From the NCBI GenBank assembly GCA_025966365.1, contig JAICWV010000009.1:1-47356 (forward strand): a stretch of 47,356 bases of DNA, written 5' to 3'. Shown here one piece after another: positions 7,288 through 9,962 of this stretch. The position numbers and the translations under genes are program-made. The notes under the pieces are model-generated. The model had not been told where the DNA came from, made no database searches, and was given only the letters and a program-made list of their open reading frames with translations. Every line of letters starts with the position of its first letter. Within the stretch, counting starts at the first letter, position 1. Origin of the DNA: Chloroflexota bacterium (lineage in GTDB: Bacteria > Chloroflexota > UBA5177).

Positions 7288-8460
7288 CTATCGCCCTATG
7301 CCCCGGGCGCCCTCATTCCGCCCGCGGCGGGCGCGGGCTTCGGCAGTCAACTGCTGCAGCTCGGACTCGCTGAGCACGCGCACGGTCCGGCGCGCGGTCA
7401 TCTGCTGGCGCTTTTCCCGGTATTGGTAGGACACGGCCAGACCGTGGTCCTGCTCGGCGATGAAGATGCATGAAACGTCGGAGCGCTGCAGCTCATAGCC
7501 CAGGGCGCGCAACAGATCCGAATATCCGTCGGGCATCGGTGGCGGCAGGATAACCGCCGGACGGCGAAAGAAACCGCCGCTGGCCGGCTTGTGGCGGTTC
7601 TCGGGCTTCGGCGCGAGCGCGTCATCGGTGAAATGGGCCCAGCGAAGGCCACCGTGCGAGGAAGACTGATACCGAACCGCGAATCCGTCTGGCATCTCCA
7701 GCACGCATACACGCGCAGCGCCCTGCTCGTCGAGCGCTCGTCCCAGCCCACGGAGCATTTCCTGGTAGGGCAGGTTGGTGCGCTGCAGAATCCACTCCAC
7801 GCTGCCGTTCTGCCCGATGCTCTCTCCGGCTCCGCCCAAGTGCGTACGGAAATAGTCCGACGGCTTGCCTTCCTGTGGAATGCGGCGACGGCGCACAGCG
7901 TCATTCAGTATCTCTTCGATCTCGGTCCGTCCCAGGCTAAGCTGCCGCCTGATCGGCCCACCTCCGTCATTCCCCTCCTGCTCGTAGCGGAGAAGCAGTC
8001 CATCGGATAGCTCGTCGATGATGACGTGACGCGCCCCCACCGAGTCCAGCTCGTAGCCGAGAGCCCGAAAGAAGTCCTGGTGCGTGACGGGCAGGTTTCC
8101 CCACACCCCCGGATGGTGCCGTTTCCCGGAAGGGGGACGGATGCGGCGCATCTCGTCTGCCCGGCGGGACAGCGCCACGCGCGGCAAGTGGTTGACCGAC
8201 ACCTCGACCAGTAGTTGCTTGGGACGCTCGGCGCGGACAAGGAAACCATCCTCGACCTCGACAATCCCGATGGACGAGGTCGTTTCCTCGTCCAGCATCG
8301 AGCCGATCGCTCGAAAAAGCTCCTGATACGACTGGGCGCGCAACGACTCGTCATGCCTCGGTATCGCGGCCTCGCCGCTGCCGGGTACGATCGGCTCAGC
8401 CGTCACCGGAGACGAATTATCGCGCAGCCCGGCGGGCAGCTCCGCCTCGAACGATGCCAT
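7288..8460 (-). CDS. Unnamed protein with four tandem copies of a short domain
   Basis: 390 residues from the chosen start; I do not recognise the family. Four repeats begin near residues 44, 126, 231 and 312, each with the pattern Y/H-(Q/S)-(E/D)-(L/F/M)-(L/F)-R-(A/G)-(I/L)-G-x-x-L followed about 12 residues later by (I/V)-x-E-x-x-D-G-(F/L)-x-V-(R/S). Examples: SYQELFRAIGSMLDE, THQDFFRALGYELDS, PYQEMLRGLGRALDE, GYSDLLRALGYELQR. Each copy thus predicts one helix and a two-stranded hairpin. Basic helices follow repeats 2 and 4. No signal peptide or membrane segment, so cytoplasmic. The start at 8460 is preferred over an upstream ATG because GGAGG lies 8 nt before it and residues upstream are of low-quality composition. 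Confidence 0.75.
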   Translation of the reverse strand: MASFEAELPAGLRDNSSPVTAEPIVPGSGEAAIPRHDESLRAQSYQELFRAIGSMLDEETTSSIGIVEVEDGFLVRAERPKQLLVEVSVNHLPRVALSRRADEMRRIRPPSGKRHHPGVWGNLPVTHQDFFRALGYELDSVGARHVIIDELSDGLLLRYEQEGNDGGGPIRRQLSLGRTEIEEILNDAVRRRRIPQEGKPSDYFRTHLGGAGESIGQNGSVEWILQRTNLPYQEMLRGLGRALDEQGAARVCVLEMPDGFAVRYQSSSHGGLRWAHFTDDALAPKPENRHKPASGGFFRRPAVILPPPMPDGYSDLLRALGYELQRSDVSCIFIAEQDHGLAVSYQYREKRQQMTARRTVRVLSESELQQLTAEARARRGRNEGARGIGR

Positions 8461-8619
8461 CCTCAACCTCCAGTACCGGGACAACCGACCCGGAGTTCTG
8501 AAGCCAGCATATCTCCCTTTTGTTTGCCCGTCAACAGAATTCTGCTCCGGCTTCCGAGCCCGGATAGCCAGGCGCAGCGCTGCTGATCCTTCAGATCGCG
8601 GCACTCCCTGTACTCCGGA

Positions 8620-8669: not shown

Positions 8670-9173
8670 TCAGACGCCGGCTCCCGCCAGGGCCTGCTTG
8701 GCCAGTCGGGTCGCGATCTTGTGCGTGGTATGCGCCATCCACTCTTCGTCCTGGAGGTTCTGCTGGAGGAGCGAGGCGACCTCCTGCTGGCCCATGAGCT
8801 GGGCCTTTTCGATCAGCCCCTTATAGGCCGTGATCTCGTAGTGCTCGGTCTTCTCCCCGGCGCCGGTGTCGAACATGGTCAGCATCTGCTTGCTCGGGCT
8901 CTCTTTGCTCGCAAAGTTGTCATGCTCCTGCTTCAGCCCCTGCGCGCCAAAGCAAGTGACCTTTTCAGGCTGCGAGCCGAGAACCTGGAAGGCACGCTCC
9001 AGGCGCTGGACGTGCTCGCGCGTCTGCTGCTGGTGCTTCTCCAGCGCCGAGCGGAATTCCTGATCGTCGACTTCCTGAGCCAGCGTCCCCAGGACGCCTA
9101 CCAGGGTCTGCTCACAGTTGAGCTGGTCACTCAGCTCGTGAAGAAAGAGCTCCTTCGGATTCGTGATGGACAT
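8670..9173 (-). CDS. DUF892 (YciE/YciF-type) ferritin-like protein
   Basis: 167 residues. The N-terminus TNPKELFLHELSDQLNCEQ and the helices EHVQRLERAFQVLG and EKTEHYEITAYKGLIEKA carry the spaced Glu/His residues of the DUF892 ferritin-like four-helix bundle. Such proteins are stress-induced and thought to bind a di-iron centre. Start ATG at 9173 is supported by AGGAGGT 8 nt upstream; an upstream in-frame extension is not homologous. A large hairpin follows the gene. It is adjacent to a UspA gene on the same strand, which fits a general stress role. Confidence 0.88.
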   Translation of the reverse strand: MSITNPKELFLHELSDQLNCEQTLVGVLGTLAQEVDDQEFRSALEKHQQQTREHVQRLERAFQVLGSQPEKVTCFGAQGLKQEHDNFASKESPSKQMLTMFDTGAGEKTEHYEITAYKGLIEKAQLMGQQEVASLLQQNLQDEEWMAHTTHKIATRLAKQALAGAGV

Positions 9174-9314
9174 AGCTCCGGACCTCCTGCGCGAATTGCT
9201 GGGCGTTTTGCGCGCCCGTCCCATACCCCGCACTTTGCGTGCCACCGAAAATGTCAATGCGTGCCGGACAACGACGGTTGTCGCCCCCCGGATGATCACC
9301 GGCCGGAACGCGGC

Positions 9315-9962
9315 TCAGGCATCCTGCACCCGGACCATCAGCACCGGGCATGGGGCCGAGCGGAGTACTGCCTCGGCAACACTTCCGAACACCAGCCGTC
9401 CCAGTCCGCCACGCCCATACGTCGTCATGGCGATGAGATCCGCTCCCACCGACCGGGCGTAGTCCAGGATGCCGGTGGATGCCGAGCCCTCACGCGCCAC
9501 GTAGGTGGCATCCACGCCCTCGGATTTCAGCTGGTCACGGTGCACCGACAGGTATGCGGACGAGGCTACTCGCGCGTGCTTGCTGATCTCCAGGAGATTG
9601 GCGTCGTGGGTGCGCGGCCAGTGGGGCAGTCCGCCCCCGGCATAGACCGACGGCTGGGCCGGGACGACCACTTGCAGCAGTGTCACGTGTGAGCCGAAGG
9701 CCCGCGACAGCCGAGCGACCACGGGCAATATTTCCTCCGCCGCCGCGGACCCGTCGAGCGCCACCACGATGCGGCGAAAGGTAACGGCGTCGACAGCTGG
9801 GCACCCGGGCCCGGTGTCGGCCCAACCTGAGGTTTTGATCTCGTGCAGAACCGGCCGCTGGGCGTGATACGACAGGTCAGACCCCGGAAGCTTCACAGCA
9901 TTCATTCCCTGGCCGCGTGGGATCAGCATATCCAGTGACGCTGCCGATTTATTGACTGCCAC
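9315..9962 (-). CDS. Universal stress protein (UspA family)
   Basis: 215 residues. The Usp fold starts at about residue 62 (FRRIVVALDGSAAAEEILPVV) and ends with the ATP-binding signature G-x2-G-x9-G-S (TYGRGGLGRLVFGSVAEAVL). A 60-residue N-terminal extension without known domain precedes it. The GTG start at 9962 has AAGGAGGG about 6 nt upstream, so the extension appears to be translated. Divergent from the GerMN/FtsH genes, sharing a promoter region with paired 11-bp direct repeats. Closely similar to the Usp at 25280-25771 in the C-terminal half, so these two are paralogs. Confidence 0.88.
   Translation of the reverse strand: MAVNKSAASLDMLIPRGQGMNAVKLPGSDLSYHAQRPVLHEIKTSGWADTGPGCPAVDAVTFRRIVVALDGSAAAEEILPVVARLSRAFGSHVTLLQVVVPAQPSVYAGGGLPHWPRTHDANLLEISKHARVASSAYLSVHRDQLKSEGVDATYVAREGSASTGILDYARSVGADLIAMTTYGRGGLGRLVFGSVAEAVLRSAPCPVLMVRVQDA

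Follow-up and report, generated by a model that had tools for sequence, protein, structure and literature searches.

A four-domain protein from a Chloroflexota bacterium built of two subtypes of a small domain described by none of the family libraries searched

Introduction

The described systems that come nearest to the protein studied here are the response regulators, in which a receiver (PF00072) is joined to an effector, and the dsRNA-binding domains (dsRBD) together with the HPF/YfiA proteins. The amphi-Trp domain (TIGR04354) is likewise small and gave E 0.061 with one relative (L021), but the score of this relative, 13.6 bits, is far under the curated cut-off of 31, and the protein itself is unmatched. 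A one-domain member of the family is found in Thermomicrobium roseum, where it is annotated as 'hypothetical protein' (WP_143714796.1, TRD_RS11490; profile E 1.8e-22). It differs from the present protein in having one domain instead of four and sits behind AAA and VWA genes.

The window, i.e. the whole stretch of 47,356 nucleotides that was analysed (contig JAICWV010000009.1), comes from a Chloroflexota bacterium. Among the close relatives of its genome is UBA5177, a Chloroflexota lineage known from uncultured members only (PMC10608941). A sequence-only reading had noticed in the window a protein with four copies of one domain, knew no family with its signature and proposed for the copies a common binding function, with multivalency. 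Here the protein, its relatives and its predicted structure are compared with the known systems.

Results

The gene and its four repeats

The features of the locus are as follows.

7288..8460, reverse strand: gene for the 390-residue four-domain protein (D1-D2-D1-D2), ATG start, stop codon included
8467..8471, reverse strand: Shine-Dalgarno GGAGG, 6 nt upstream of the ATG at 8460, read from the sequence
8506..8534, reverse strand: sigma-70 promoter-like site TTGACG-17-TATGCT, weak (one site, with 0.6 expected by chance)
8134..8334, reverse strand: repeat R1, D1 type, predicted alpha-beta-beta-beta-alpha (profile E 1.1e-18; R1R2 model pLDDT 88.9)
7876..8088, reverse strand: repeat R2, D2 type (profile E 4.6e-21; single-domain model pLDDT 89.7)
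7591..7770, reverse strand: repeat R3, D1 type, with a degenerate second helix, PKPENRHKP (profile E 3.2e-17)
7315..7530, reverse strand: repeat R4, D2 type, with His-Gly for Asp-Gly and Gln for the helix Asp (profile E 2.3e-22)

GC by codon position is 0.71/0.47/0.78 in the gene as against a flat 0.60/0.62/0.58 in the upstream in-frame extension to 8640, and the neighbouring genes show a codon-position signal as this gene does. Given the Shine-Dalgarno sequence and the coding-type codon GC, 7288-8460 on the reverse strand is a real gene. The promoter-like site at 8534-8506, taken alone, is near the chance rate for the region. The product has a mass of 43.5 kDa and a pI of 6.6; no membrane segment was seen in it and it is soluble.

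The repeats begin at residues 44 (R1), 126 (R2), 231 (R3) and 312 (R4), which confirms the starts read earlier, and each of the six pairwise alignments outscored all of 2000 shuffles. All four repeats match the domain profile of the D1/D2 family, with E values of 2e-22 to 3e-17. The motif R-(A/G)-(I/L)-G-x-x-L is common to all four copies, as had been claimed. The second motif, E-x-x-D-G-(F/L)-x-V-(R/S), had also been assigned to every copy; it is strict in R1 and R3 only, since Leu replaces Val in R2 (ELSDGLLLR) and His replaces Asp in R4 (EQDHGLAVS). Within the helix motif Y-x4-L-R-(A)-(L/I)-G-x3-D the Arg and Gly are present in 4/4 repeats and the Asp in 3/4; the Asp-Gly turn, too, is present in three of the four.

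Relatives and described families

No match above the curated cut-off was obtained in Pfam, NCBIfam or PADLOC, either for the window protein or for the D1/D2 regions of its relatives. PHROGs returned one-member matches only (best E 0.003) and PDB sequences gave a best E of 0.034, neither of them convincing. With no library match, a known-family identity for the window protein was rejected. The D1/D2 family is described by none of the libraries searched, and the earlier statement that no known family carries this signature was borne out.

The domain profile found matches in at least 118 of 400 Chloroflexota genomes and in 71 of 224 genera, i.e. about 30% of the sampled genomes, a lower bound with few candidates scored per genome. 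There were no matches among 7820 reversed open frames. One narrow pattern, not a profile, was scanned against the genomes of 84,980 species and gave seven confirmed relatives, all of them Chloroflexota. Among 72,556 plasmids the sole member was that of T. roseum (Chloroflexota in the GTDB sense), and no family member was found in phages. The reading had foreseen a new lineage domain should a profile search return only Chloroflexota proteins of varied copy number, and this is largely what was seen, the relatives carrying one, two or four domains. The family is thus likely to be restricted to Chloroflexota, other phyla having been searched by limited means, in the genome scan with the narrow pattern only. 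Two of the seven relatives lie on contigs titled 'Proteobacteria bacterium' (JAJPIP010000079.1 and JAJPKF010000012.1, from Centralia_MAG_338 and _67; L103 and L107), which appear to belong to the family or order of the window's genome and are probably wrongly titled.

The 81 non-identical open frames collected comprise 61 two-domain and 19 one-domain frames and none with three; the window's protein is the only one with four. In several cases two one-domain genes lie next to each other (L063, L064, L065, L077, L098). The genome of the window encodes three more two-domain paralogues, and all five genomes of its taxonomic family have 3-8 domain proteins each. One genome (G040, with L014 and L021) holds about 14 diverged domain copies; the C-terminal region of its L014 is weakly like DUF2171 (E 0.045). 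A 678-residue frame (L087:4455-6491) carries a C-terminal D1-D2 pair after a long Pro/Glu-rich linker, and its N-terminal part recalls by eye a degenerate PP2C-like phosphatase, with no Pfam match.

Two subtypes and the origin of the four-domain form

Profiles built from the first and from the second domains of the relatives match each other at 98% probability. On a tree of 65 domains, in which few columns leave single forks weak, the D1/D2 labels need 4 changes as compared to 17 when shuffled, and none of 500 shuffles was as low. R1 and R3 group with the first domains (D1) and R2 and R4 with the second (D2). On a tree of two-domain units R1R2 falls inside a clade of 11 rows (96/95) that also contains the L006-like and L003-like orthologue groups, R3R4 joins L027 (85/85), and supported branches separate the two. 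Since the window's genome already has its own L006-like member (L002 on C72), R1R2 is an extra paralogue. Both trees speak against tandem duplication inside the gene, whether of a single domain or of a whole D1-D2 unit, and this origin was rejected; from these phylogenies the window protein is a fusion of two different paralogous D1-D2 genes. The multivalency proposed for tandem copies needs changing in this light: the order D1-D2-D1-D2 arose, on this evidence, by fusion of two paralogous pairs and the copies are not equivalent.

Predicted structure

AlphaFold2 modelled R1R2 with a mean pLDDT of 88.9 and a pTM of 0.85 from nine sequences, and R2 alone with a pLDDT of 89.7 from eighteen. The elements of the R2 model are a helix at 4-17, strands at 20-28, 31-38 and 47-53, and a helix at 55-70; each domain is confidently predicted (pLDDT 89-90) to be alpha-beta-beta-beta-alpha. 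Foldseek gave nothing at E<=0.001 against the PDB and viral models. Naming the fold by this route was rejected for want of a significant match, and modelling of one repeat, which the reading had suggested as a check, led to no known fold. The weak likenesses of the single domain are to HPF/YfiA, dsRNA-binding domains and part of hydroxymethylbilane synthase (E from 0.11, TM <0.5).

Genomic context

The window gene is flanked by an NMO-family gene and a DUF892 gene (8670-9299), neither of which is conserved in the family. The NMO neighbour was found in no other family member, and the DUF892 protein has one weak relative (28% identity) in the other four genomes of the taxonomic family. A universal stress protein gene (9315-9962) adjoins the DUF892 gene. 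As the NMO and DUF892 genes are not conserved, a function drawn from the window's own neighbours was rejected. The same lack of conservation would suit a decaying lineage-specific paralogue, one of several, fused by accident and without a distinct role; so would a four-domain form seen in the window's genome alone, the absence of a regular second helix in R3 and the loss of two conserved residues in R4. Such decay is nevertheless quite unlikely, as the 390-codon frame is open, shows the GC3 typical of coding sequence and is preceded by a ribosome site of its own, and all four domains retain strong profile scores.

Synteny around the relatives is lineage-local only, with no single partner, and a recurrent partner gene was rejected. 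In family f18 (L061-L062, L110-L115; genomes of 5.6-13.7 Mb in the sample) a single-copy one-domain gene is syntenic with NYN and M42-peptidase genes at 8/8 loci. In T. roseum and two close relatives (L067, L109, L125) the one-domain gene belongs to a tight one-strand row with genes for a T2SSE-like ATPase, an AAA protein and a VWA protein. A gene for a zincin-like protein lies in the neighbourhood of L063-L065.

The NYN (RNase-like) gene of f18 could be taken to favour an RNA- or ribosome-binding protein, with a topology like the dsRBD or the HPF/YfiA core and tandem copies that bind one RNA. HPF/YfiA, many times, and several dsRBD entries also stand in the top 50 Foldseek matches of the single-domain model. 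All these matches are non-significant, however (best E 0.11, TM 0.48 or less), and the NYN gene is several hundred bases away from the domain gene. The fusion partners of the family are signalling domains and not RNA enzymes. Moreover, the domains are acidic, unlike dsRBD and HPF: the net charge per domain is -3.1 on average and no more than 3% of domains have a charge of +3 or above, which argues against binding of RNA or other nucleic acids. RNA binding is, in our estimate, very unlikely.

The links to signalling come from the relatives. Two of them have the architecture REC-D1-D2, L068 (Response_reg E 4.7e-16) and L069 (Response_reg E 5.9e-12), and in a third (L079) the pair is joined to a guanylate cyclase domain. 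The gene of L068 belongs to a tight same-strand row: a PAS-HisKA-HATPase kinase, a CheY-like response regulator and REC-D1-D2. Judged by its sequence, the receiver of L068 keeps the phospho-acceptor Asp, and that of L069 seems to have lost it. At L092, genes for a response regulator and then a cNMP-binding protein come after the D1-D2 gene in the same orientation. The receiver-fused relatives and the kinase-regulator-receiver-D1-D2 row thus indicate a putative signalling role. Most relatives, and the window gene too, are without an adjacent signalling gene, and Response_reg is absent from the window protein in the Pfam search.

Conserved residues

Conservation was measured on 126 domains less than 80% identical. 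In helix 1 the Arg is kept in 95% of them, the Gly in 99% and the Asp in 92%; the Glu of beta1 is kept in 84%, and a terminal Arg or Lys in 99% of the rows that reach the C-terminal position. From their spacing of 3 and 4 residues, the helix-1 Arg, Gly and Asp would lie on one face. A glycine at this place would let helices pack closely, and the charged residues could form salt bridges, either within a domain or across D1-D2. When covariation was tested among the conserved charged residues, whose near invariance limits the power to find salt bridges, only Asp28-Gly29 reached p 0.018 in 28 tests, which is non-significant after correction.

The reading had held the Asp-Gly hairpin and the helix Arg to be conserved in all copies. 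For the Arg this is so in the four copies and nearly so in the family; the turn is missing from one copy, and in the 126 domains its Asp is kept in 48% and its Gly in 61%. The argument that these residues imply a common binding function fails because the turn is a feature of the hairpin and not a signature, and a beta-turn with a charged network can be structural.

A ligand-sensing pair, like the ACT pair, was also considered: a pseudo-dimer with a small-molecule site at its interface, the four domains sensing two ligands or one cooperatively. The prevalence of pairing, the two non-equivalent subtypes, the fusions to cyclase and receiver domains and the conserved Arg-Gly-Asp face of helix 1 would all fit such a sensor. 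We consider it unlikely, since, apart from those of helix 1, the Glu of beta1 and the terminal Arg, conserved polar residues form no cluster, and the residues just named are compatible with a structural salt-bridge network. In addition, paralogues within one genome show no common pathway neighbourhood.

Discussion

In the present analysis D1 and D2 proved to be subtypes of one undescribed domain of Chloroflexota, about 70 residues long and predicted to be alpha-beta-beta-beta-alpha; the working unit would be the pair. The prevalence of two-domain frames, the neighbouring one-domain genes, the separation of the D1 and D2 labels on the tree and the two-domain model all favour pairing. The pair may be supplied by one two-domain protein or by two adjacent one-domain genes, and a lone one-domain protein could form it as a homodimer. 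It would serve as a module for protein-protein interaction or regulatory output, and a phosphorylatable receiver domain can precede it. Because that of one relative is wired to a signalling kinase, the pair is more probably a module for regulatory interactions than an enzyme, and we infer that it binds protein partners. The window protein joins units of two paralogous lineages, and since its units come from different lineages it probably bridges two partners. On this view it would be a scaffold or adaptor, soluble in the cytoplasm and consisting of two D1-D2 pseudo-dimers, in which the pair is the interaction or regulatory module and the four-domain form a bridge of two units. We give this reading an even chance of being right. 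A more specific proposal, made only tentatively and with some doubt, is that D1-D2 is a new output or adaptor module of Chloroflexota response regulators, a pseudo-heterodimer which replaces DNA-binding outputs and has spread as stand-alone adaptors, the four-domain bridge included.

A domain present in about 30% of the sampled Chloroflexota genomes is missing from the libraries searched, and naming it would annotate many 'hypothetical proteins'. The row of kinase, regulator and receiver-D1-D2 genes makes its function testable.

As compared to the known systems, the dsRBD and HPF/YfiA proteins share with D1/D2 the order alpha-beta-beta-beta-alpha, a similar length and repeated weak Foldseek matches. 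D1/D2 differ from them in that no structural or sequence match is significant, the domains are acidic and not basic, and there is no fusion to an RNA enzyme. The likeness to response regulators consists of the two REC-D1-D2 relatives, one of them beside a PAS histidine kinase and a CheY-like regulator; the window protein differs in lacking a receiver, and none of the known output domains is matched by D1/D2.
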